The notes under the pieces: model-generated | The model's input: only the letters and a program-made list of their open reading frames with translations | Told to the model about the DNA's origin: nothing | The model's database searches: none | Program-made: the position numbers and the translations under genes | Shown: positions 13,193-33,076 of the stretch, in pieces | Layout: every line of letters begins with the position of its first letter | Position numbering within the stretch: position 1 is the first letter of the stretch | From: Candidatus Brocadiia bacterium | GTDB taxonomy: Bacteria; Planctomycetota; DG-23; SLPQ01 | Assembly: GCA_007131925.1 (NCBI GenBank) | Contig: SLPQ01000070.1 | Location: 1-33,195, forward strand | Direction of reading: 5' to 3' | DNA length: 33,195 nt

Positions 13193-13773
13193 CCTCGGAC
13201 TCCTTTCACCTTCTCTCCCAATTATGCAACACCCTTACGGAGGGTATTCGCCACCGCCAATCACCATATGCCAGGCTCTCGGCCTCGCTTTGACATTAAA
13301 ATATACGACAGACGCTGCCAAGAGAAGTTCCACGCATGCCAACTTTGTGCCTCCTCGGCACCCCCCCCCAACCCTGTAATCAGTCCGCAGGAGCCGTCTG
13401 GGGGCAAGACGAAGCTGCCAAGTTCCAATAACCCTCAGCCTCGTGCCGAGCAGTCAAGGTAAGGCGTCCGTCCGCTGTCAAAAAGACCGCTCCTGGCGAT
13501 GCAGGAGAAATCCCCGTGCTTGGAGTTGGCGGCACTGCTCGCCTCCAACGCCCATTGCGAAGCAGCGCCCCAGCGGCCGCCATGCGACCTCATCACCACT
13601 TAGGGCGGGGCCGATGTTTTTCGCGGACAGGGCTGCCCCACGACGACATCAGGCCCGGGGGAGCTGGCCCGCGGGAAAGCCGCCTCGGGCGGCTGCGCCG
13701 TGTGTCGGCAGCATCCGGCAGGCTTTGCCTGCTCTGGCGGCGGTTCAAGAGGCACACGTGCGTGCATGGTCAG

Positions 13774-15852
13774 TCATGCCTTAAAGCACGTCCGTACGGT
13801 GTCAATGAGGTCTTCGGTCGGGTCCCCCTTGCAAATGTAGGCCGCTGCGCCTGCATCGCGCATGGCCTTTGTGACGGACCTGTCCAAGTGCATCGAGAGT
13901 CCTATGACCTTGATCTCAGGGTTGTTTGAGAGGATTCGACGGGTGGCCTCGACACCATCGATTTGCCCAAGGTTGACGTCCATTATCACGACGTCCGGCT
14001 CCAATTTCCGCGCCAGCTCAATGGCCTCAGGGCCGTCACGCGCCTCCCCTACGACCTCGATGTCCGACTCAAAACGCAGCAGCTCGGCAAGTCCTTCGCG
14101 CAGGACATTGTGATCGTCGACGATGAGAAGGCGACACAGGTCCTGCTTTGGCTGCCATGCAGTCACCTCCGCAGGTCTGCGAGGCGCTGCCACCTCACTC
14201 GCCTTCGCCGCAGGCTGCTCCTCGTAGACGGGCACCTTCAAGGTAACCTTTGTGCCGCTGCCCGGCGAGCTCTCAATCTCCATCTCGCCCCCAAGGTGCG
14301 CCAGGCGCTCACGTATGCTGAACAGGCCAAAGGTCATCTCCCCAGCGTCTCTACTGCTGAGCTGGTCGGGGTCAAATCCTGTGCCTTCGTCACGGACTGT
14401 CAGTGTGACGAGGCCATCGCCCCCGCGGGCGATTGTCACATCCGCCTCACTTACGCAGGCATGCTTGGCGACGTTAAAAAGCAGCTCACGCGCACACTCG
14501 AAGATAAGAAAGCGCGCCTCCTCTTCAGCAATCTCAAACTGGGAGTCCGCATGGAGGTCCACGGTAAGGTTCTGCTGCTGTCGCATGCGGGAGGCCAGCC
14601 AGTCGAGACCGCCGATCAGCCCCTTCTCATGGAGTGCGGGCGGACTGAGCTCGACCGTCAACGACCGCGACGCATCCAATGCCTCGCTGAGAGTGTCAGA
14701 TGCATTCTGCGCGATGGCCTGCATCCGATGCGGGTCGCTGGTCTGTTTGATCTGTTGCACCTGCATTTTGGCGCCTGCGATAAGCTGCTGGACGTGATCG
14801 TGCAGTATCCTCGCCAGACGCTTGCGCTCGCGCTGCTCTGTCGTGGTCAGCTGAAGCGACAGTGCTCGAAGCTGTTCGGCCTGCTGCGTTATCTCGGCGG
14901 TGCGCTCGAACACGCGCCGCTCGAGAGATTCGTTGAGCGCCAGGAGCGTCTGCTCGTGATGCTTCTGATCCGTTATGTCGATTACCACTCCGATGTTTAC
15001 AGAAGGCTGACCGTCGCTGTCGCCAATCGTCTGGCTCTTGATTTCAACCCATCGCTCTGAGCCGTCAGGGTGAAAGATGCGGTATTCGCTCGACTGCTCG
15101 CCGGGGGCTTTCACCATGTCTGCAATCAGACGTTTCAAATCGGCGAGATCCTGCGGATGTGCAGTTTCAAGCACCTGCTCGGGCGTCACGTCGCCCTCAA
15201 GAGGCAGACCATATATGGTGCGCCCACGTCTTGAGAGCGTGAAGCTGCCGGAAGTAATGTCGAAGCGCCATGTTCCGATGGCTGCCAGCTCAGCCGCCAG
15301 GCGCAGGCTTTCCATGCTGTGTCTCAGCGCATCCTCGTGACGTTTGCGCGCGGTGATATCCCGCATTGTCACCTGGACTGCAGGGCGACCGTGAAACTCG
15401 ATCCGGGTGCCGACAGTCTCCACCTCCACGGGGCAGCCATCCAGCCGAACCACTGTGAATGGCGCTGGCGGCGTGCTTTGCCCGTCGCTCACCGCCAATC
15501 GCATGCGATCGGAGACGGCCTCGCGGTCATCGGCATGGACCAGCTCCAGCACGTTACGGCCGACAATCTCTTGCGCGCTTTCACCACCGAAAAGGCTCAC
15601 AGCCGCCGCGTTGACAAAAACATACTTTCCGTCGGCATGAACGGCGATGGCATCCGGGGAAAGGTCCACCATTGCGCGATACATGGCCTCGCTCTCGCGC
15701 AGTTGTGCTTCAGCCTCCCTCAGGCGCAGTAATACGAAGCTCTTCTGGCCGACGACAGCGTCGATGTCTCCCTCACGCAAGGCCGCGATGATGCCTTCTG
15801 CCTGCTCAAGACGTCTGCGCAACTCGTGCGCCGAGAGTTCTCCATGTGCCAT
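13774..15852 (-). CDS. PAS-containing sensor histidine kinase (HisKA_3/HATPase) fused to C-terminal REC domain
   Basis: 692 aa; PAS text (YRAMVDLSPDAIAVHADGKYVFVNAAA; RTIYGLPLEGDVTPEQVLETAHPQD), HisKA_3 ERKRLARILHDHVQQLIAGAKMQ, HATPase ECARELLFNVAKHA...VRDEGTGFD...FGLFSIRERLAHLGG, REC LLIVDDHNVLREGLAELL...DVVIMDVNLGQIDGVEATRRI; no HTH after REC. Confidence 0.93.
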   Translation of the reverse strand: MAHGELSAHELRRRLEQAEGIIAALREGDIDAVVGQKSFVLLRLREAEAQLRESEAMYRAMVDLSPDAIAVHADGKYVFVNAAAVSLFGGESAQEIVGRNVLELVHADDREAVSDRMRLAVSDGQSTPPAPFTVVRLDGCPVEVETVGTRIEFHGRPAVQVTMRDITARKRHEDALRHSMESLRLAAELAAIGTWRFDITSGSFTLSRRGRTIYGLPLEGDVTPEQVLETAHPQDLADLKRLIADMVKAPGEQSSEYRIFHPDGSERWVEIKSQTIGDSDGQPSVNIGVVIDITDQKHHEQTLLALNESLERRVFERTAEITQQAEQLRALSLQLTTTEQRERKRLARILHDHVQQLIAGAKMQVQQIKQTSDPHRMQAIAQNASDTLSEALDASRSLTVELSPPALHEKGLIGGLDWLASRMRQQQNLTVDLHADSQFEIAEEEARFLIFECARELLFNVAKHACVSEADVTIARGGDGLVTLTVRDEGTGFDPDQLSSRDAGEMTFGLFSIRERLAHLGGEMEIESSPGSGTKVTLKVPVYEEQPAAKASEVAAPRRPAEVTAWQPKQDLCRLLIVDDHNVLREGLAELLRFESDIEVVGEARDGPEAIELARKLEPDVVIMDVNLGQIDGVEATRRILSNNPEIKVIGLSMHLDRSVTKAMRDAGAAAYICKGDPTEDLIDTVRTCFKA

Positions 15853-15867
15853 AGGTGTCTTTCCTGA

Positions 15868-16167
15868 TCAGATAAGGCCCAGGGCTGCATGCAGCTTTTC
15901 CGTATCGCTCAAATCGCCCAGCAGAGTCACGCGAGGAGGGGGGTCAAGTACGACCAGGGCCGGAGTGACCATAATGTCATAATCAAGGGCCGTCTGGAAA
16001 TCGTCAAATACGTCCACTACCTGGAGGTCGTACCGCTTACTGCCCTTCTCAGAGCAGGCAGCACGGATGTTTTCCCTGGCGCGACGTGAGTTTGGCTCAT
16101 CGCCGGCGACAAACAATATCATCCTGCAGCGGACCGCGCCCGGTGCTGTCAAGCCGGGCCGGTTCAT
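15868..16167 (-). CDS. kaiB: KaiB-like (thioredoxin-fold circadian clock family) protein
   Basis: MILFVAGDEPNSRRARENIRAACSE..YDLQVVDVFDDFQTALDYDIMVTPALVVLDPPPRVTLLGDLSDTEKLHAALGL matches KaiB LYVAGxxPNS, VIDV, ATPTL, GDLSDREKV; overlaps the kaiC stop (ATGA). Confidence 0.9.
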   Translation of the reverse strand: MNRPGLTAPGAVRCRMILFVAGDEPNSRRARENIRAACSEKGSKRYDLQVVDVFDDFQTALDYDIMVTPALVVLDPPPRVTLLGDLSDTEKLHAALGLI

Positions 16168-17606
16168 TTGTCTTTCCCCTCGCTCGATAAATGAGCTCCT
16201 GGTGTTTTCAAGGCCACGCCTTTCGAGGAGATGCTGAACTTATGAAACTTGTTTGAGTGATTTCTGCCGCGCGACTTCAGCACAAGCAAAGTACGCTCCA
16301 TCTCGCAGCCGCTACGCACGAAGCCGAGCATGACGATGGCGTCAATCAGCGATGAAATGCCGATGCCGCTCAGGACCTCCATGCTGACGGCCCCGCCGGT
16401 CTGATTGACATAAATGCACGTAATCCCGCGCTCCTTGCAGCGGTTGAGCAGACGGATTAGAAAATCAAAAGCAGCCTGCTCAGACCCTATACGTCGAGCC
16501 GCGGAAATCGCATCAACAACGAGGTGCTCCGGCTCGAAATCGTCGATACGCTGGAAGATACGCAGCAGGTGATGCTCCGCCCCAAGGGCCTCAGGCATGG
16601 CTGTGAGGATCTCCAGGCTGCCATCTTCCAGAAGCGGTCGCAGATCAATGCCGGGGCTGAGCATGGCCCCTGTCAGGGCTTCTCTTGATTCCTCGAAGCT
16701 CACGTACAACGTACGCTCTTGCCGTCTGCATGCGGCCTGGGCGAAAGTACAGGCCAGCGTCGTCTTGCCACTCCCGGTAGGCCCCGCTATAAGAACTGAG
16801 GCGCCCCGGCAATAGCCACCCCCAAGCACGGCGTCCAACTCACTCTGCCCGGCAGAAACCGGCGCGCCCAGTGGCCTGTGAGCCAGCTCGGCATCAGAGA
16901 CCGGCACGATGACGATGCCGCGGGGTGTAATGACGAAGGGATACTCGTTGCTGCCGTATGCGGATCCGCGATATTTCAACACGCGCAGCCTGCGCGTGCT
17001 TACCTGTGTGTCAACTCGCTGAGTGGCCTGGATCACGCAATCGGCCATGAATTCCATGAAGGTGAAGTCTCTTGCCAGACCAGTGTCCTGGCCGGACTTG
17101 GCTGTAAGCACGGCGGTAAGGCCGCTTTGCATCAACCATTCGTGAAGGCTGTACAGCTCGTTTCGCTGGCGCAGGGGGTCATTGAAGAGGCACATCAATA
17201 CATCCACAGCATCGATCACAACGACACTTGCGCTGATCTTCTTGGCCTGTCCGCTCAAGATCGCCAGCAGCCCCTTGATGCTGAACTCACCGGCAAAGAT
17301 CGCATTGTAATCAATCTTCGGACGGATTACTGCCAAAAGGCCCTTTGCTTCAAGTGCGGCCAGGTCCCAGCCCATGGAGAACGCGTTGCCACGAATTGCT
17401 TCGCCCGTCTCCTCAAAGGAAATCAGAACGCCCGGCTGACCGGACATGGCCCCGCGATAGAGCATCTCCAGCGCCAACACCGTCTTACCAGACCCGGCTT
17501 CGCCGACGACCAGGGTGGTCCGCGCTTGCGGCAGGCCACCCTCAAGAATGCTGTCAAGACCTTCCACGCCGGTGGCAAGCTTGGGAAGTGGCTCAGGTCG
17601 CTCCAT
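16164..17606 (-). CDS. kaiC: Double-domain KaiC-like RecA-superfamily ATPase
   Basis: 480 aa from MERPEPLPKLATGVEGLD (AAGGAG RBS; ORF track extends to 17666); two Walker A motifs GEAGSGKT and GPTGSGKT; two EE motifs LISFEETGEAIR and LYVSFEESREALTG; VVIDAVDVL and LVVDAISAA Walker B-type strands. Confidence 0.93.
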   Translation of the reverse strand: MERPEPLPKLATGVEGLDSILEGGLPQARTTLVVGEAGSGKTVLALEMLYRGAMSGQPGVLISFEETGEAIRGNAFSMGWDLAALEAKGLLAVIRPKIDYNAIFAGEFSIKGLLAILSGQAKKISASVVVIDAVDVLMCLFNDPLRQRNELYSLHEWLMQSGLTAVLTAKSGQDTGLARDFTFMEFMADCVIQATQRVDTQVSTRRLRVLKYRGSAYGSNEYPFVITPRGIVIVPVSDAELAHRPLGAPVSAGQSELDAVLGGGYCRGASVLIAGPTGSGKTTLACTFAQAACRRQERTLYVSFEESREALTGAMLSPGIDLRPLLEDGSLEILTAMPEALGAEHHLLRIFQRIDDFEPEHLVVDAISAARRIGSEQAAFDFLIRLLNRCKERGITCIYVNQTGGAVSMEVLSGIGISSLIDAIVMLGFVRSGCEMERTLLVLKSRGRNHSNKFHKFSISSKGVALKTPGAHLSSEGKDK

Positions 17607-17837
17607 ACTGCAGGGCTCCTTGCGCTTACTGGAGTCCATCGCGCTGCACTTTGCTCTGCAGCACAAGCTTAAGCCAATTATATGCGGCTACCCTCAATAA
17701 GGGTACCCTCCGGCCCATGCGGCTGTCAACATACAATATTGAAGAAAGGCTGACAAACGTGAAGCTTCTCTTCGACCTCATGGGCGTTTGAAACGGGTGC
17801 TGGCAAGACCTCCACATTTCTTGACAGACCGCCCCCG

Positions 17838-18055: not shown

Positions 18056-18084
18056 TGGACACGCACGCCCTCTCCTGATAGTAT
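18056..18084 (+). promoter_or_regulatory. Candidate sigma70-type promoter for araB
   Basis: TGGACA (18056-18061), 17 bp spacer, TAGTAT (18079-18084); ATG at 18122. Confidence 0.4.
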
Positions 18085-18121
18085 GCCGCATCATGAATCT
18101 GGTTTCAGGTGCGAGGGAGGT

Positions 18122-19807
18122 ATGATGAGCGGTGCCTTCACAATAGGGCTCGACTTCGGCACAAACTCGGTCAGAGCACTCATCGTCGACACGGCGACCG
18201 GTGAGGAAATCGCAACCAGCGCCTGGAATTACTCGCACGGCCGGGACGGTGTGATCATCGACGACATGGACCCTCATCTGGCCCGCCAGCACCCGCAAGA
18301 CTACCTCGACGGGATCGAGGCCGGCATCGTTGCGTGTCTTGCGCAGGCTTCCCGGAGGCGAGGCTTTTCAGCGGATAATGTAATCGGCATCGGCGTGGAT
18401 ACGACGGGGAGCACTCCTATTCCCGTGGATGGCGACGGCACGGCGCTTGCCTGCAAGGAGGATTTTGCCGATAACACGAATGCCATGGCGTGGCTCTGGA
18501 AGGACCACACCGCACACGAGGAGGCCGCCGAGATAACCGCCGCAGCCGCCAGGGAGCGCCCGCAGTACTTGGCAAAGTGCGGCGGGAGGTATTCGTCTGA
18601 ATGGTTCTGGTCGAAGATCCTGCACTGTCTGAGAGTGGACGAGCAACTTTTTTCGGCTGCCCACACGTGGGTGGAGTGCGCCGACTGGATACCCGCGGTC
18701 CTCACCGGCACCCAGTCGCCCGGCAGGATGAAACGAGGCATATGCGCCGCCGGGCACAAGGCGATGTTTCACCCGACATGGGGCGGCTATCCGGACGAGG
18801 AGTTTCTGGCCGGTATCGACCCGGGGCTTCGAGCTGTTCGCCGGAGGCTGCCGCAGAGGGCATATACGGTAGCCGACCCGGCAGGCGCGCTCACCGATGA
18901 GTGGGCAGACAGGCTCGGCCTGCCCGCAGGCATACCGGTGGCGACAGGCGCCTTCGATGCGCATCTGGGCGCAGCAGGCTCAGCTGTGCGTCCCGGTGTG
19001 CTGGTCAAGATAATCGGCACTTCCACCTGCGACTGCGCGGTCTGGCCGCTCGATGCCGACCTTCCTGACATCCCGGGGGTCTGCGGCATCGTGCCGGAAA
19101 GCATCCTGCCGGGCATGTACGGTCTGGAGGCCGGGCAGTCTGCGGTAGGGGATATTTTCAACTGGTTTGTCAGCCACATCCGCCCTGGTGGCGAGGCCGG
19201 CTCCCACGAGACGCTCACAAGGGAGGCAGCGGCCCTCCTACCCGGTCAGAGCGGCCTCTTGGCCCTCGACTGGCACAACGGCAACCGCACCATCCTTGTC
19301 GATCAGCGCCTGACGGGTCTTCTTGTCGGGATGACTCTGCACACTACATCCGCGGAGATCTACCGCGCCCTTATAGAGGCGACCGCATTTGGCGCGCGTG
19401 TCATTATCGAGCGCTTCGAGGAGTACGGCGTCAGGATCGATCGCGTGGTCAGCTGCGGAGGCATCGCGGCCAGAAATCCTCTTGTGATGCAGATCTACGC
19501 CGATGTCATGAACCGCACAATGGATATCGCACAAAGCGACCAGACCTGCGCACTCGGTGCCGCCATGGCAGGGGCCGTGGTCGCAGGGACCGCAGCAGGC
19601 GGGCATGACGACTTTGCTGGCGCCCAGGAAGCCATGTGCGCCTTCAGAGACCAGAGCTTCCGGCCCGACCCCGAGAGATCGGCCGTCTACCATCGCCTGT
19701 ACCTGCTTTACCGGCGGCTGCATGATGCCTTTGGAGCCGGGAAAAGCGGCGACATGCAGGATATCATGAAGAAGCTTCTTTCAATTCGCGATGAAGTGAG
19801 GGGCTGA
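18122..19807 (+). CDS. araB: Ribulokinase (FGGY family)
   Basis: Start at MMSGAFTIGLDFGTNSVRALIVD after gagggagg RBS; GIGVDTTGSTPIPVD, NTNAMAWLWKDHTAHEEA, GTSTCDCAV, CGGIAARNPLVMQIYADV. Confidence 0.93.
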   Translation: MMSGAFTIGLDFGTNSVRALIVDTATGEEIATSAWNYSHGRDGVIIDDMDPHLARQHPQDYLDGIEAGIVACLAQASRRRGFSADNVIGIGVDTTGSTPIPVDGDGTALACKEDFADNTNAMAWLWKDHTAHEEAAEITAAAARERPQYLAKCGGRYSSEWFWSKILHCLRVDEQLFSAAHTWVECADWIPAVLTGTQSPGRMKRGICAAGHKAMFHPTWGGYPDEEFLAGIDPGLRAVRRRLPQRAYTVADPAGALTDEWADRLGLPAGIPVATGAFDAHLGAAGSAVRPGVLVKIIGTSTCDCAVWPLDADLPDIPGVCGIVPESILPGMYGLEAGQSAVGDIFNWFVSHIRPGGEAGSHETLTREAAALLPGQSGLLALDWHNGNRTILVDQRLTGLLVGMTLHTTSAEIYRALIEATAFGARVIIERFEEYGVRIDRVVSCGGIAARNPLVMQIYADVMNRTMDIAQSDQTCALGAAMAGAVVAGTAAGGHDDFAGAQEAMCAFRDQSFRPDPERSAVYHRLYLLYRRLHDAFGAGKSGDMQDIMKKLLSIRDEVRG

Positions 19808-20529
19808 TGGCATACGAAGAGCTGAAAGAGAGTGTATTCGAGGCAAATCTCCAGCTTGTGCGCTCAGGGCTGGTCATACTCACGTGGGGCAACGCAAGCG
19901 CCGTCGATCGTGATGCGGGCGTAGTTGCGATAAAGCCAAGCGGCGTCGAATACGCTACGCTCACCAGCGACGACATCGTCATCGTGTCACTTGCCAGCGG
20001 AGCGATCATCGAGGGGGATCTTTGCGCCTCGTCCGACACTCCGACTCACCTTGTGCTGTATCGTGAGTTTGAATTTATGGGCGCAATCACGCACACTCAT
20101 TCGACCTGCGCGACCGCGTGGGCGCAGGCCTGCAGAGAGATCCCATGTCTCGGCACGACGCATGCTGACTTCGCTGCAGGGGCGGTGCCGGTGACGCGTC
20201 TGATGAGGCGCGAGGAGATTGAGGGGGATTACGAGGCCAACACGGGCAAGGTCGTAGCAGAGTGTCTGCGCCTGCCTGAACACGAGGGCTCGGCGCCGCC
20301 TGCCGCCCTCGTCGCGGGACATGGCCCTTTCACATGGGGCGCTACGGCCGCAGAGGCAGTCGAAAATGCTCTCATACTCGAGGAGATAGCACGGATGGCT
20401 TTGCATACCCTGGCTGTAAACCCTGAGATCAAACCTATCGGAAAGGTCCTGCATGAGAAACACTGGAGCCGCAAGCACGGACCCGGCAGTTACTATGGCC
20501 AGAGCAAGGAGCCGCCGGCCAGCGACTGA
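19807..20529 (+). CDS. araD: L-ribulose-5-phosphate 4-epimerase
   Basis: TGATG overlap with araB; LTWGNASAVDRD, IKPSGVEYATLTSDDIVIVSL, SSDTPTHLVLYREF, ITHTHSTCATAWAQACREIPCLGTTHADF, GHGPFTWG. Confidence 0.95.
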   Translation: MAYEELKESVFEANLQLVRSGLVILTWGNASAVDRDAGVVAIKPSGVEYATLTSDDIVIVSLASGAIIEGDLCASSDTPTHLVLYREFEFMGAITHTHSTCATAWAQACREIPCLGTTHADFAAGAVPVTRLMRREEIEGDYEANTGKVVAECLRLPEHEGSAPPAALVAGHGPFTWGATAAEAVENALILEEIARMALHTLAVNPEIKPIGKVLHEKHWSRKHGPGSYYGQSKEPPASD

Positions 20530-24247: not shown

Positions 24248-25903
24248 TTACGCCTGCGCCAGCGCTGTTGCAAGGTCCTCATCCGGTGTGGAGACCGGCT
24301 GTATGTTAAACTTCTCCACGAGCACATCGAGAACGGGCTGTGTTATGAACGCAGGCAGCGACGGGCCTATTTTGATGTCCCGTATGCCGAGGTGCAGCAG
24401 AGTAAGCAGTATGGCAACGGCCTTCTGCTCGTACCAGGACAGAATGAGCGAAAGCGGCAGGCCGTTCACATCGGTGCCGAATGCATCGGCAAGTGCTCCG
24501 GCAATCTTAATCGCCGAATAGGCGTCATTGCACTGGCCGACGTCCAGCATCCGCGGTATGCCGCCTATCTCGCCGAACTCGAGCTTGTTGAAGCGGTACT
24601 TGCCGCAGGCGAGAGTCAGGATGACGCAGTCGTCCGGGACCTTTTCGGCCAGCTCCGTATAGTAGTTGCGACCCGGCTTTGCGCCGTCACAGCCGCCTAT
24701 CAGGAAGAAATGGCGGATGTTGCCGGCCTTTACCGCGTCAATGACCTTGTCTGCGACACCGAGGACCGCGTTGTGGCCGAAGCCGACCATGATCTTCTTT
24801 TCAGGCGCGTCCTCCTTGAAGCCCTCTGCGGCAAGTGCGGCGTCTATGAGGGGCTTATAGTTGTGCTCATAGATATGGGTTACACCGGGCCATGCCACCA
24901 GACCACTTGTGAAAATCCTGCCCTTGTATGATTCGGAGGGCTTCTGCAGGCAGTTTGTGGTCATCAAAATCGCACCTGGAAGCTTGTCAAACTCCCGGAT
25001 CTGATCCTGCCAGGCGCCGCCGTAGTTTCCAACAAGATGCGGGTACTTACGCAGAGCCGGGTAGCCGTGCGCCGGCAGCATCTCGCCATGAGTGTAGATA
25101 TTTATTCCAGTGCCCTCGGTCGCCTTGAGGAGCTCTTCAAGGTCCTTGAGGTCATGGCCGGAGACAACTATGGCCTTTCCCTTTACCGGAGTCACGCGCA
25201 CCTCGGCGGGCTCGGGATGGCCGAAGGTATCGGTGTGCGCCTTGTCCAGAAGCTCCATCGTCACGAGGTTGATACGCCCGGCCTCGAGGCATAGTGCGAC
25301 CAGCTTGTCAACAGTGGGCGCGGGGTTTGCCAGGTAGTCGAGCGCCTCGTGGAAAAAGGCGTATATTTCGTCGTTTCGATAGCCGAGTATGGCGGCATGA
25401 TCTGCATATGCTGCGGCACCCTTTACACCGTAGAGCAGCAGCTCCTGGAGGCCAGTAGCATCGTGGCCAAGGCTGTCGATGCGGGCCTTTATGCCGAGAT
25501 CATCAGCCTGCTCGACCATTCCGCTAATCCCAGCGGCCGGCTGCCAGGTGGCCGGTCCTGCGAGCTTTTCGACCTCTACGCCCTTGGCGGCACATGCCCT
25601 TGCATACATTTCTGCGGCCTTTTCACGGATGGCTATGCTCTCTTTGAGCATGACGGCAAGACTCTCCGGGTCAAAGTTGACATTGGTGAGAGTCGCAAAG
25701 AGAGCCTCAGCGGTGAAAAGGTCCACCTCGTCATCAGTCGCGCCGAGCTCGCGCGCGCGGTGGGCATACATGCTTATGCCCTCAGCCGCGTAAACCAGAA
25801 GATCCTGTAAGGCGGACGTCTGTGGGTCCTTGCCGCAAACGCCGTGCACGGTGCATGCCTGGCCTTTGGCGGTCTGTTCGCACTGATAGCAGAACATTGT
25901 CAT
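24248..25903 (-). CDS. hcp: Hybrid-cluster protein (hydroxylamine reductase / NO-related)
   Basis: Start at MTMFCYQCEQTAKGQACTVHGVCGKD (Cx2Cx8Cx5C) after AAGGAG (ORF track extends to 26035); GINIYTHGEMLPAHGYP, TTNCLQKPSESYKGRIFTSGLVAWPGV, GGCDGAKPGRNYYTE, GQCNDAYSAIKIA. Confidence 0.97.
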   Translation of the reverse strand: MTMFCYQCEQTAKGQACTVHGVCGKDPQTSALQDLLVYAAEGISMYAHRARELGATDDEVDLFTAEALFATLTNVNFDPESLAVMLKESIAIREKAAEMYARACAAKGVEVEKLAGPATWQPAAGISGMVEQADDLGIKARIDSLGHDATGLQELLLYGVKGAAAYADHAAILGYRNDEIYAFFHEALDYLANPAPTVDKLVALCLEAGRINLVTMELLDKAHTDTFGHPEPAEVRVTPVKGKAIVVSGHDLKDLEELLKATEGTGINIYTHGEMLPAHGYPALRKYPHLVGNYGGAWQDQIREFDKLPGAILMTTNCLQKPSESYKGRIFTSGLVAWPGVTHIYEHNYKPLIDAALAAEGFKEDAPEKKIMVGFGHNAVLGVADKVIDAVKAGNIRHFFLIGGCDGAKPGRNYYTELAEKVPDDCVILTLACGKYRFNKLEFGEIGGIPRMLDVGQCNDAYSAIKIAGALADAFGTDVNGLPLSLILSWYEQKAVAILLTLLHLGIRDIKIGPSLPAFITQPVLDVLVEKFNIQPVSTPDEDLATALAQA

Positions 25904-26006
25904 TTTACTGCTCCTTTCCGCATACCTGTAATTACGGTCTCGCAGCGGGCGAGGCGCCTCGTCAAAGCCTGCGAAACCAGATCCATGCCACCATCGATAC
26001 CTATTC

Positions 26007-26765
26007 TTACACACCGGCTGGTGTGATGACCTCACGGGTTATGGAGCCGTCTATACCGATCGTATGAACCTCAAGCGGCACGTCTGGAGCCGCCTGTAGT
26101 GCAGCATCGACCGTGACCTTTGCAAGCCCGGCACAGCATGGCACCTCCATGCGCAGTACAGTCACCGAAGCGGGCCCGGCCTCAGCAAGTATAGCCTTTA
26201 TTTTGGATGCGTAGCCGGCCAGGTCGTCAAGCTTGGGGCAGCCCACAAGCACCGCCCTGCCCTCCAGATACCGGCTGTGAAAATCAGAAAGAGCAAATGG
26301 CACACAATCGGCAGATATCAGTATGTCCGCCCCCGCAAGAAACGGCGCGAATGGCGGCACGAGCCTCAGTTGCACAGGCCATGTAGAAAGCGCCGAAAGA
26401 GCAGCGGCATCCTCCCCCTCAAGGGGGCGCTTCGCCTGGGGCCTTCGAAGCGCGGTTCCCGGACAGGCTGCGCCAGGGCATCCGGCCGGCTCACTGGCGT
26501 GCGCCGGACCGTCCAGGGTGCGCCCAAGCATCGCCAGGCGCGCCTCTACCGCCTTCATATCAAAGGCCTCGGCCTCCCGCTCCTCGATAACAAGCGCCCC
26601 CGTAGGGCACTCGCCGATGCAGGCGCCCAAGCCGTCGCAGAAGACCTCGCTGACGAGCTCGGCCTTGCCATCGATGATCTCAATGGCCCCCTCTGCACAG
26701 GCCGTCACGCAGTTGCCGCACCCGTTGCACTTGTCACGGTCAATGGATATTATCTTTCTCTTCAT
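26007..26765 (-). CDS. 4Fe-4S ferredoxin-domain protein, Hcp-associated
   Basis: Two ferredoxin motifs CNGCGNCVTAC and CDGLGACIGECP; overlaps the 3' end of the Rrf2 gene by 26 bp and precedes hcp. Confidence 0.85.
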   Translation of the reverse strand: MKRKIISIDRDKCNGCGNCVTACAEGAIEIIDGKAELVSEVFCDGLGACIGECPTGALVIEEREAEAFDMKAVEARLAMLGRTLDGPAHASEPAGCPGAACPGTALRRPQAKRPLEGEDAAALSALSTWPVQLRLVPPFAPFLAGADILISADCVPFALSDFHSRYLEGRAVLVGCPKLDDLAGYASKIKAILAEAGPASVTVLRMEVPCCAGLAKVTVDAALQAAPDVPLEVHTIGIDGSITREVITPAGV

Positions 26766-27198
26766 GTCTGAGTTTACCTTCCATGCTGGCGGCTATATTG
26801 GAAACTCTCGTCCCGGAAAGGCGATGCCGGACCATCCTGCACACCTCGGCGAGAAGGTCCCCCAGGATACAATTTCCCTGGCAGACGGGTTCATCCAGAA
26901 GACACTCGCTCTCGGCCAGCGGCCCGTCAATTGCCTCATAAACCTCCATTAAAGTGATTTCTTCGGCAGGCTTGTCGAGCATGAAGCCGCCCCTGGGCCC
27001 ACGCACCGATGCGACAATGCCGCTTCTGCCCAGTCGCTGGAGCACCTTTGAAAGGTGTGCCTCGGATGCGCCCAGAAACGCCGCCATGTCCCTGTTGCTC
27101 AGCACCTCGCCGTCGTGTGCGGCGAGGAGTGCAGTTGTGTGTATCGCGAGCACCGCGGCCTCCGAAATTCTCAGTATTCCGTACATCGCTCGCCCCAT
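26740..27198 (-). CDS. Rrf2-family transcriptional regulator
   Basis: LRISEAAVLAIHTTALLAAHDGEVLSNRDMAAFLGASEAHLSKVLQRLGRSGIVASVRGPRGGFMLDKPAEEITLMEVYEAIDGPL; Cys set CLLDEPVCQGNC consistent with Fe-S coordination. Confidence 0.92.
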   Translation of the reverse strand: MGRAMYGILRISEAAVLAIHTTALLAAHDGEVLSNRDMAAFLGASEAHLSKVLQRLGRSGIVASVRGPRGGFMLDKPAEEITLMEVYEAIDGPLAESECLLDEPVCQGNCILGDLLAEVCRMVRHRLSGTRVSNIAASMEGKLRHEEKDNIH

Positions 27199-28622: not shown

Positions 28623-29138
28623 CTAAGAAAACCGCCTTACAGCCTCAAGGGCGGTCTCGTAGTCAGGCTCACCTGAGACCTCGTCGACGATTTCACGGTA
28701 GCGCACCACGCCGTTGGCATCCACGACAAAGACGGCCCTGGCAAGCAGCCGCAGCTTCTCAATCAGCACACCGTAATTCCTGCCAAAGGACGCATCACGA
28801 TGGTCGGAGAGAGTCGTCACGTTCTTCACCCCGGCCGCACCGCACCACCGTTTCTGGGTAAAGGGCAGATCCATGCTGATCGTAAGAACCGTGACATCTT
28901 CACCCAACGCGGTGACCCTTTCGTTGAACGTTCGGGTCTCTTTGTCACACACTGACGTTTCAAGGGACATCACCGAGGCTATGATGCAGGGGCGCCCCTT
29001 GAACTTCGACCAATGCACTTCAGCCATGTCGTTGTCCACGCCGATGAAGTCAGGCGCCTTGTCTCCGACCTTGACCTCCTTGCCGGCAAGCGCCACCGGC
29101 CTGCCGTCTACCGTCACAGTGCGACTTTCTTTTCCCAT
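28623..29138 (-). CDS. tpx: Thiol peroxidase (peroxiredoxin, Tpx family)
   Basis: VTVDGRPVALAGKEVKVGDKAPDFIGVDND...SLETSVCDKETRTFNERV...DLPFTQKRWCGAAGVKNVTTLSDHRDASFGRNYGVLIEKLRLLARAVFVVDANGVV. Confidence 0.9.
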   Translation of the reverse strand: MGKESRTVTVDGRPVALAGKEVKVGDKAPDFIGVDNDMAEVHWSKFKGRPCIIASVMSLETSVCDKETRTFNERVTALGEDVTVLTISMDLPFTQKRWCGAAGVKNVTTLSDHRDASFGRNYGVLIEKLRLLARAVFVVDANGVVRYREIVDEVSGEPDYETALEAVRRFS

Positions 29139-29186: not shown

Positions 29187-29768
29187 TTACCAGTTTTCCG
29201 CAAGCAGCTCAAAGTGCGCTTGCGGATGTGCACAGGCAGGGCAGCTTTGAGGGGCCTCTTCACCGGTGTGCAGGTATCCGCAGTTACGGCAGCGCCAGAC
29301 GACCTGGTCGTCTTTCTTGAAAACCGTACCTGCCTCCACATTTGCCAGGAGCCCGCGGTAGCGCTTTTCATGCTGCCTTTCGGCGACCGATATGGCCTCG
29401 AAGACCGCCGCTATCGCATCGAAGCCCTCCTGGCGGGCGGTATCGGCAAAGGTTGGATACATCTCGCCCCACTCGTAGAGCTCGCCGTCGGCGGCGGCTT
29501 TCAGATTTTCAGCAGTGGTTCCGATGACGCCCGCGGGAAAGTTGGCCTTTACCTCCACCTCCCCTCCCTCGAGTAGCTTGAAAAAGCGCTTGGCGTGCTC
29601 CTTTTCCTGGTCGGCTGTCTCCTCGAAAATATCTGCAATCTGTACGTACCCTTCCTTGCGAGCCTGTGAAGCGAAGTAGCTGTAGCGGTTTCTTGCCTGC
29701 GACTCACCGGCAAATGCGGTAATTACGTTCTTTTCTGTCCTCGTGTCCTTCAAACCCATTTCTGCCAC
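29187..29768 (-). CDS. rbr: Rubrerythrin
   Basis: KNVITAFAGESQARNRYSYFASQARKEG...EETADQEKEHAKRFF...EAISVAERQHEKRY...VWRCRNCGYLHTGEEAPQSCPACAHPQAHFE (C-terminal rubredoxin-like domain). Confidence 0.97.
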   Translation of the reverse strand: MAEMGLKDTRTEKNVITAFAGESQARNRYSYFASQARKEGYVQIADIFEETADQEKEHAKRFFKLLEGGEVEVKANFPAGVIGTTAENLKAAADGELYEWGEMYPTFADTARQEGFDAIAAVFEAISVAERQHEKRYRGLLANVEAGTVFKKDDQVVWRCRNCGYLHTGEEAPQSCPACAHPQAHFELLAENW

Positions 29769-29804: not shown

Positions 29805-31082
29805 CTATGCAGTTTCGGCGCCATCCGCGCGACGTGCGGCGTAGCCAAGCTCAGTGACTGCTCGCTCGAGACATTCTCCGGCAAGCCCGCTGCCCGCTAC
29901 CACCGCCAGGCCGTCAGACAGATTTACGGAAACAGAAGCAACACCCTCGCACGCCCTCAGTGCCCGCTCCACAGCGGCCACACAATGGCTGCAGGTCATT
30001 CCATCGACCTCGAGGGTCACAGTTTCCTCAGAAGGACCTCCTGCACTTCCACCAGCAACGCCGCGGGCACTCTGCCCGCGCAACATCGCGGAAAAGATGA
30101 CCACAAGCAGTATCACAGCCGACGGGACCATGACATAATCGGGCAGCATTTCCGCCATGCTGTAAACGCCGGGAATTGCAGGATGCCTGAAAAGCAGATC
30201 AAGAATCGCACCGAACGTCAGCGCCGCGGCCACTACAGAGGCCAGGTACAGAAGCGCCGTGCGACCACCCATGACCTTCCATATGGTGGTGATAGATGCC
30301 GCGTTGGTCGTGGGCCCGGTCATGAGAAAGACCAGCGCCGCCCCCGGTGATACGCCTTTTTCGAGAATCAGTATGGCCGCCACCGGTATCGACGCGGTCG
30401 CACAGACGTAGAGAGGTATCCCGCAGAGCATCATCACGAGCATGCCGGTAAAACCGGTCCCCAGCGCACCGGCAAAAAAGTCCTCAGGCACCACCACGCT
30501 CACCAGCGCAGCAATAGAGAGGCCCATTAGAAGCGACTTCCCGATATCTTCAGGCAGCGTCACAAATCCGTAATGAAGAATGCGCCTGAGCCTGCCGTGT
30601 CCCTCGTCAAAACTGCAGCAGGCATCCGTACACTCTACCACATCCGTGTCCGTGGCACTTGCGCCCCTCTCGCCCCCGAAAAGCGCCACCGCGACCCCGC
30701 CAAATATTCCCGCTGCAAAAGCCGCCACCGGCCTGAAGACAGCAAAGACGGGCCCCAGCAGGCTAAGCGTCACCAGTATGCTGTCCACGCCGGTCTGAGG
30801 TGTAGAGAGAAGAAACGAGGTAGTCGATGGTCTCGACGCACCATGCCTTCTTAAAGAGGCTGCCACAGGTATAACCCCGCATGAACACAGAGGCAGCGGC
30901 ACGCCGAAAAGGGACGCCTTCACGACAGGCCAGATGCCGTGTCCGCCAAGGTGTCTTTCCACAACCACCGGAGAAATCAACACCGAAAGGACACCAGCCA
31001 CAAAAAAACCAAACAGAAGGTATGGCGACATGTGGGTTAAGGTTTCCCAGAATGCGCCGATTATCTCAACAAGGTATTCCAT
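29805..31082 (-). CDS. Permease (SO_0444-type Cu/Zn efflux family, DUF318/ArsP-like) with C-terminal HMA domain
   Basis: YLLFGFFVAGVLSVLI, GVPLPLCSCGVIPVAASLRRHGASRPSTTSFLLSTPQTGVDSILVT, permease TMs; C-terminal VTLEVDGMTCSHCVAAVERALRACEGVASVSVNL. Confidence 0.9.
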   Translation of the reverse strand: MEYLVEIIGAFWETLTHMSPYLLFGFFVAGVLSVLISPVVVERHLGGHGIWPVVKASLFGVPLPLCSCGVIPVAASLRRHGASRPSTTSFLLSTPQTGVDSILVTLSLLGPVFAVFRPVAAFAAGIFGGVAVALFGGERGASATDTDVVECTDACCSFDEGHGRLRRILHYGFVTLPEDIGKSLLMGLSIAALVSVVVPEDFFAGALGTGFTGMLVMMLCGIPLYVCATASIPVAAILILEKGVSPGAALVFLMTGPTTNAASITTIWKVMGGRTALLYLASVVAAALTFGAILDLLFRHPAIPGVYSMAEMLPDYVMVPSAVILLVVIFSAMLRGQSARGVAGGSAGGPSEETVTLEVDGMTCSHCVAAVERALRACEGVASVSVNLSDGLAVVAGSGLAGECLERAVTELGYAARRADGAETA

Positions 31083-32245: not shown

Positions 32246-33076
32246 TTACTTCGCCGCCGCCAGAGCACAGACCGCGGAAGGATGCTTTATCCTGAGAGCC
32301 ACGCTCTCGGAGAGCGAAAACTCAAAAGCGCCCTCTATCGGTCCGATAAAGCCTGCCATCAGGTCCTGCCCGATGACTACGCTTGCATAGATGCGGCCGG
32401 TCGCGATAAGCACACCGCCCGAATCGAGCGCAGGCAACTTCACAACACCCTCGGTGACCACTCTCTTCACGTGGTCCATTTCCGTCATCTCGCCGTGCTC
32501 GTAGCGGCGCAGCAGGAGATTGTAAAGAGAGGGCGCAAGCCCCAGCGCATACGGACCGTGTATGCCCGCATTGTCCATCTTAGTGACCGCTGCAATAATG
32601 TCATCGACCGCGGCTCCGATGGTTTTCCATGACTTGATGGAGTGGGAGATAGAACCCTTCAGACCCAGAAGCCCCTCAGTGCCAAGCTCCCTGGAGCCGT
32701 TGAGAAGCAGCTCATCCTCCATCCTTGCGACTGCGATGGCAGCATGTGCGACCGCTCTTGTATCAAACGGCGCACCGATCTGCTCAAAGGCCGCGATGTC
32801 GCGCATGCCGATTTGAAAGATGGAGTTGATGCCGGCAAGCGGGATGATGCCTGGCCCGCTTGCACTGGCTGTAACATCGCCCATCTTTATCTCATGCTTT
32901 GTCGGCACGTCTGTTGTGGGAACGCTCTTTGTGCCGAGGCCGTACGGGCCCTCTATGTCGATAAGCCTGCGCACCGAAAGCTGAGCCCTTGCGGCGCCTA
33001 TCGCCGCATCATCCAGGTGTTTCCAGACCTTTTCACCGAAAGGGGCGTCGCTGCGCCCGAGATATTTGCCAGCCAT
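32246..33076 (-). CDS. Family 1 encapsulin shell protein (linocin M18-like)
   Basis: YLGRSDAPFGEKVWKHLDDAAIGAARAQLSVRRLIDIEGPYGLGTKSVPTTDV...AVARMEDELLLNGSRELGTEGLLGLKGS...GPYALGLAPSLYNLLLRRYEHGEMTEMDHVKRVVTEGVVKLPALDSGGVLIATGRIYASVVIGQDLMAGFIGP; aaaaggagg RBS. Confidence 0.96.
   Translation of the reverse strand: MAGKYLGRSDAPFGEKVWKHLDDAAIGAARAQLSVRRLIDIEGPYGLGTKSVPTTDVPTKHEIKMGDVTASASGPGIIPLAGINSIFQIGMRDIAAFEQIGAPFDTRAVAHAAIAVARMEDELLLNGSRELGTEGLLGLKGSISHSIKSWKTIGAAVDDIIAAVTKMDNAGIHGPYALGLAPSLYNLLLRRYEHGEMTEMDHVKRVVTEGVVKLPALDSGGVLIATGRIYASVVIGQDLMAGFIGPIEGAFEFSLSESVALRIKHPSAVCALAAAK

Follow-up and report, generated by a model that had tools for sequence, protein, structure and literature searches.

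How KaiBC systems without KaiA, SasA, CikA or RpaA relay their state is a question on which a locus bears in a Candidatus Brocadiia bacterium (phylum Planctomycetota), which lies in a stretch of 33,195 nucleotides (contig SLPQ01000070.1) that was analysed at full length and is called the window here. On the minus strand, to which coordinates refer unless stated otherwise, three intact and closely packed open reading frames encode a two-domain KaiC ATPase of 480 residues (kaiC, 16164..17606), a KaiB of 99 residues (kaiB, 15868..16167) and a hybrid histidine kinase of 692 residues with the domain order PAS-PAS-HisKA_3-HATPase_c-REC (13774..15852). The kaiC stop and the kaiB start share a 4-nucleotide ATGA overlap (16164..16167), and 15 nucleotides separate the kaiB stop from the kinase ATG. 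The three genes form an apparent operon, for which we infer co-transcription.

A preliminary description of this DNA had singled out the same set of genes, and a scan of open reading frames with Pfam and NCBIfam confirmed the genes, the overlap, the gap and the orientation. What stands of its reading is a KaiA-less, co-oriented gene set with intact catalytic residues; the layout itself is not novel, since operons of kaiC, kaiB and a PAS/histidine kinase gene are already published (PMC4794148, PMC3164672, PMC10931921). Such operons are known in Rhodopseudomonas palustris and Rhodobacter sphaeroides (PMC4794148), and nearly all non-cyanobacteria have a gene for a kinase or a GGDEF/EAL protein right after kaiBC (PMC3164672). 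The SasA homologues found outside cyanobacteria have no KaiB-like domain, and output factors are missing (PMC5520375). The locus is therefore a known kind of system, of which a tail-less KaiC clade and a HisKA_3-REC partner make a variant. What the analysis adds to the published operons is a short N-terminal module of the kinase, pairs of KaiB and kinase that occur without KaiC, and the tail-less clade to which KaiC belongs.

A kinase module encoded behind kaiB

The module came to light when gene neighbourhoods were compared and the same kinase N-terminus recurred in genes adjoining kaiB. In the window kinase it occupies residues 10-35 (15748..15825; ELRRRLEQAEGIIAALREGDIDAVVG). Its consensus is [ED]LxxRLxEAExTLxAIRxGEVDA[VIL]V, with the core A..R.GEVDAVV; A24 and D31 are invariant across all 43 aligned rows, and R26, G28, L15 and R14 nearly so. 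The scans for it covered whole genomes rather than kai loci, 941 genomes from three phyla in total: a profile of nine N-termini was run against 395 genomes of the window's own phylum, and one built from 11 N-termini was used for 299 genomes of the phylum of Bradyrhizobium (Pseudomonadota) and 247 of the phylum of Desulfotignum (Desulfobacterota). Seven own-phylum matches and one from the Desulfotignum phylum went into the profile; all Pseudomonadota and nearly all Desulfobacterota matches are independent of it.

At E ≤ 2.1e-5 these scans returned 38 matches (11, 8 and 19 in the three phyla, respectively), and 36 of them are encoded in kai operons, downstream of kaiB (11/11, 8/8 and 17/19). Thirty-five come immediately after kaiB, 8-570 nucleotides from the end of the KaiB domain; in G019, kaiC stands between kaiB and the module gene, and the module is internal to the protein. 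Both exceptions, L257 and L256, the latter downstream of a KaiC fragment, belong to the Desulfotignum phylum. The plasmid matches, from Pararhizobium, Rhizobium and Falsirhodobacter, lie directly after kaiC-kaiB in three cases of three. Beyond the main samples, the single module protein in the genome of a Brocadiaceae relative (L006) and one of the two in a Desulfotignum genome (G397; the odd one is L007/L191) are encoded behind kaiB, which brings the pooled count to 41 of 44. Weaker matches (E 1.9e-4 to 9e-4) were counted as background; at least one of these (L262) adjoins kaiBC, and several others resemble chance frames.

No Pfam family and no solved structure among the PDB chains matches the module at a meaningful E-value, and the viral collection encodes no relative of it. 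In the literature that we searched we found no description of the module; one report refers to an N-terminal region, not further specified, in some kinases linked to kai genes, so that an earlier notice is possible (PMC3164672). Since the module occurs almost only in proteins encoded right after kaiB, it may be the part of the kinase that reads the clock protein. It would serve as a sequence tag for KaiB-wired proteins in at least three phyla, allowing the outputs of uncharacterised KaiBC systems to be found from sequence alone. Two loci carrying the module have unusual layouts. At L245, kaiC and three kaiB genes alternate with two module proteins. At L192, in Desulfotignum, kaiC-kaiB is followed by a module gene of only 421 residues whose module match is interrupted by a stop, and an intact module kinase (L007/L191) is encoded elsewhere, without kaiB.

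Outputs behind the module and KaiB without KaiC

The module is constant, a PAS domain mostly comes next, and the effector is the part that varies. In the window, as in L006 and L008, the module is followed by HisKA_3-REC. L116, L120, L121, L131, L187, L190, L250 and L258 have HisKA in this place, with or without REC, and the Rhizobium protein is annotated as an HWE kinase. Two of the proteins are effectors of other kinds, a sigma-54 AAA domain with HTH_8 (L119) and a GGDEF-EAL protein (L189). A single vertical lineage of module kinases was considered and rejected, since the output domains come from different families. A constant module ahead of a varying effector is the pattern expected of a docking or adaptor element. 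The operon could instead have been transferred and inherited as a block, the shared N-terminus reflecting common descent of one kinase line with no role in coupling to KaiB. Transfer is indeed suggested by the scattered occurrence of KaiB, which at E ≤ 0.001 is found in 35 of the 395 own-phylum genomes (27 above the family cut-off), and by a KaiC clade that mixes phyla. However, mere hitch-hiking would hardly keep the module highly conserved ahead of unrelated outputs and nearly absent away from kaiB, and we regard it as very unlikely.

The association also outlasts KaiC. Three genomes, G261 (a single contig, 99% complete), G337 (99%) and G064 (90%), have kaiB followed by a module kinase and show no KaiC. 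Their best KaiC-family matches are weak and partial: they lie in frames of 457-479 residues, probably RadA-type, and score no more than about 72 bits, whereas real KaiCs reach 196-259 bits per domain. The module thus tracks KaiB, as these genomes keep the kaiB-module pair when KaiC is gone; such pairs would imply a job for KaiB besides KaiC binding. Many module operons, in addition, carry kaiB twice. The copies on the kaiC side fall into one supported group of the KaiB tree (98/96), joined by some single KaiBs, and the copies on the module side lie mostly outside it; the KaiBs of G261 and G337 join those from the module side of L117 and L120 (100/100). This split of tandem KaiBs is a lead and not proof, because so short a protein leaves many forks of the tree unresolved. 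We tentatively propose, at a little under even confidence, that the module serves as a general docking site for KaiB, has no relation to the KaiB-like domain of SasA and couples various outputs (kinases of several classes, a sigma-54 activator and a cyclic di-GMP enzyme) to KaiBC; that the second tandem KaiB is specialised for the module; and that the KaiB-module pair is independent of KaiC in some genomes.

The kinase, KaiC and KaiB as a candidate switch

The window kinase, assigned from Pfam and its full-length relatives, carries behind the module two PAS domains (residues 57-166, PF00989, 15355..15684; residues 206-290, PF08447, 14983..15237), a HisKA_3 phosphoacceptor domain with H351 (residues 342-407, PF07730, 14632..14829), a HATPase_c domain (residues 451-542, PF02518, 14227..14502) and a NarL-like receiver with D625 intact (residues 576-686, PF00072, 13795..14127). 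The preliminary description had the domain order and the length right, counted the PAS domains as one and missed the N-terminal module. The catalytic residues are in place, H351, N460 and D488xGxG in the kinase and D579/D580/D625/S653/K675 in the receiver, whose nearest PDB relatives are VraR and NarL. Like SasA of cyanobacteria, the kinase would be coupled to the Kai proteins through its N-terminal part. However, SasA has a KaiB-like thioredoxin domain, whereas the module is short, about 26-60 residues, and rich in helix, and a Pfam scan of the kinase found no PF07689; membership of the SasA group was rejected on this ground. Like CikA, also of cyanobacteria, the kinase ends in a receiver-type domain. 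The receiver of CikA has no phosphoacceptor aspartate and binds KaiB. In the window kinase, on the other hand, D625 and the acidic pocket are intact, so that it has no pseudo-receiver, and the HisKA class differs; CikA membership was likewise rejected. KaiA3 of Synechocystis is likewise a kai-operon protein with a NarL-type receiver (PMC11372060), but there the receiver is joined to a KaiA-like C-terminus, whereas in the window it ends a kinase, in a genome with no KaiA match.

Full-length relatives of the kinase are found in a Brocadiaceae metagenome-assembled genome (L006, 48% identity) and in Desulfotignum metagenome-assembled genomes (L007, 37%; L008, 36%). L006 and L008 encode kaiC, kaiB and a HisKA_3-REC kinase on one strand. 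The kaiC-kaiB-kinase order is kept in these two and in L192, also from Desulfotignum, and because they share it the neighbourhood, whose conservation the preliminary description had left to be checked, is not random.

With its two PAS domains and redox genes nearby, the kinase could also be an input device, as has been proposed for R. sphaeroides (PMC5520375, PMC10931921): the PAS domains would sense redox or oxygen and the kinase would regulate KaiBC, without reading KaiB. Yet the module also precedes pure effectors (the sigma-54 activator with its helix-turn-helix domain in L119 and the GGDEF-EAL protein in L189), which is output-like, and KaiB-kinase pairs survive where KaiC, the target of such regulation, is absent. 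We think an input role unlikely.

KaiC matches PF06745 twice (E 5e-93) and the NCBIfam KaiC model PRK09302 with 473 bits (cut-off 408), and both halves are intact, with Walker A motifs at 35 and 275 and the catalytic Glu-Glu motif FEE at 64 and 304. In alignments, S418-S419 (16350..16355), within the stretch LSGIGISSLID, falls on S431/T432 of the cyanobacterial type and on S413/S414 in R. sphaeroides, and is a candidate phosphorylatable pair. Beyond position 467 the protein has just 13 residues; nearly all members of the long-tail clade have 85-131. The window KaiC is missing the A-loop and KaiA-binding tail of cyanobacterial KaiC1/KaiC3 and sits outside the 8zn5-type clade; the coiled-coil C-terminal extension of about 50 residues typical of R. 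sphaeroides-type KaiC2, which forms a separate clade, is missing as well. In the KaiC tree the window protein belongs to a tail-less clade of eight (support 97/85), distinct from both types: the window, L006, L008, L132, L134, L192, L254 and L255, with L008 placed less surely because of its long branch. The complete-genome relatives L132 and L134 have a tail-less KaiC and a KaiB with no adjoining kinase, and membrane-type and glycosyltransferase-like genes come next. R. sphaeroides KaiC retains nucleotide exchange and autophosphorylation without its coil, and the KaiBC of that species is an hourglass driven by ATP/ADP (PMC10076222). Since the coil-less R. sphaeroides protein keeps these activities, the window KaiC can plausibly work without a tail.

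The comparison with the R. palustris and R. sphaeroides hourglass extends to gene order, lack of KaiA, the Ser-Ser pair of KaiC and a PAS kinase after kaiB (PMC4794148, PMC10076222), and the window's genome has the genes by which such an hourglass is recognised, kaiBC and a PAS kinase with KaiA unmatched. It breaks down at the tail and clade of KaiC (97/85) and at the kinase, which in the window has HisKA_3 and a C-terminal receiver. The KaiC of Falsirhodobacter, which adjoins a module kinase, groups with that of R. sphaeroides.

KaiB matches PF07689 with 61.1 bits against a cut-off of 27 and scores below the NCBIfam cut-offs for the clock-KaiB equivalog. Its AlphaFold model, from a shallow alignment of three sequences, predicts only one form, a thioredoxin-like beta-alpha-beta-alpha-beta-beta-alpha chain, the topology of fold-switched KaiB when it binds KaiC. 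The best PDB fold matches are 4kun, 8fwj_M and 5jwr_B; the first, KaiB of Legionella pneumophila, whose kai operon is likewise a KaiA-less kaiBC, is the top match and a sequence match too. That match, the KaiC-less KaiB-kinase pairs and the oxidative-stress genes of the neighbourhood are what one would expect if KaiB were a thioredoxin-like kinase adaptor in a stress response, with KaiC a separate regulatory ATPase and no timekeeping. However, kaiC is mostly retained in the operon, with both active sites and the Ser-Ser pair kept, and we consider such an adaptor improbable. KaiB-like genes also occur in a second kind of neighbourhood, adjoining receiver proteins without the module or KaiC (L135, L136, L137 and L139).

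Taken together, the reading that we favour, with evenly poised confidence, is that KaiBC acts as a phosphorylation/ATPase switch that runs like an hourglass and not as a self-sustained clock, and that a hybrid kinase dedicated to it reads KaiB through the module. KaiC would phosphorylate S418/S419 independently of KaiA, following the ATP/ADP ratio as R. sphaeroides KaiC leads one to expect, and thioredoxin-like KaiB would bind or leave it depending on its phosphorylation state. The kinase would sense KaiB, free or KaiC-bound, through its N-terminal module and add the signals of its own PAS domains to this reading. Phosphate would then pass from H351 to its own receiver, to a separate regulator or to both, the best candidate regulator being the NarL-type L222 of the same genome. 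We infer the contact between KaiB and the module, the direction of signalling and any role in timing; the conservation of the module leans towards a KaiB-linked partner and does not settle whether the kinase is sensor or reader.

Several observations weigh against this proposal. L132 and L134 pair kaiC and kaiB closely without a neighbouring kinase, and only about 11 of the 27 own-phylum genomes above the KaiB cut-off carry the module. Three module proteins (L257, L007/L191 and L256) do not lie behind kaiB. The AlphaFold prediction of the module, from four sequences, is of low confidence (predicted local distance difference test scores of 51-71), and with three sequences AlphaFold may favour the thioredoxin-like form of KaiB. 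Legionella KaiB, moreover, reportedly does not act with KaiC as a clock. Finally, gene neighbourhood is not proof of contact between KaiB and the module.

Host genome and neighbouring genes

The assembly to which the window belongs comprises 3.03 Mb in 257 contigs and is 91% complete. At this completeness, it contains no match to KaiA (PF07688), in agreement with the KaiA-less claim of the preliminary description, no match to an Hpt phosphorelay partner (PF01627) and no second two-domain KaiC; these absences are not final, because 9% of the genome is missing. The genome encodes 36 receiver domains. Among the best 30 of these 36 loci, the NarL-type DNA-binding regulator L222 is closest to the receiver of the kinase (47% identity), and OmpR-type regulators (L216 and L221) are also present.

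At the operon itself, AGGA-like ribosome sites precede the kinase and kaiC starts. The kaiC start chosen, ATG at 17606, agrees with the homologues; an in-frame TTG at 17666 would give 500 residues. A weak terminator-like hairpin with a T run lies 3' of the kinase (13490..13507; eight such sites against 3.9 expected). On the upstream side, a ribulokinase and class II aldolase pair (18083-20529, plus strand) is divergent from kaiC. The anaerobe-type neighbours that had been pointed out earlier, 2-oxoacid:ferredoxin oxidoreductase, Hcp and rubrerythrin, are present. Hcp (prismane), a ferredoxin-type protein and an Rrf2 regulator overlap at 24248-27198 (minus strand), likely a nitrosative-stress unit. 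An encapsulin (Linocin_M18, 32246-33076) lies a few genes from rubrerythrin (29187-29768) and a redoxin (28623-29138), all on the minus strand; they may form a compartment cluster for oxidative stress or iron. A single protein encoded at 29805-31082 (minus strand) combines an ArsP-type permease with a C-terminal heavy-metal-associated domain.

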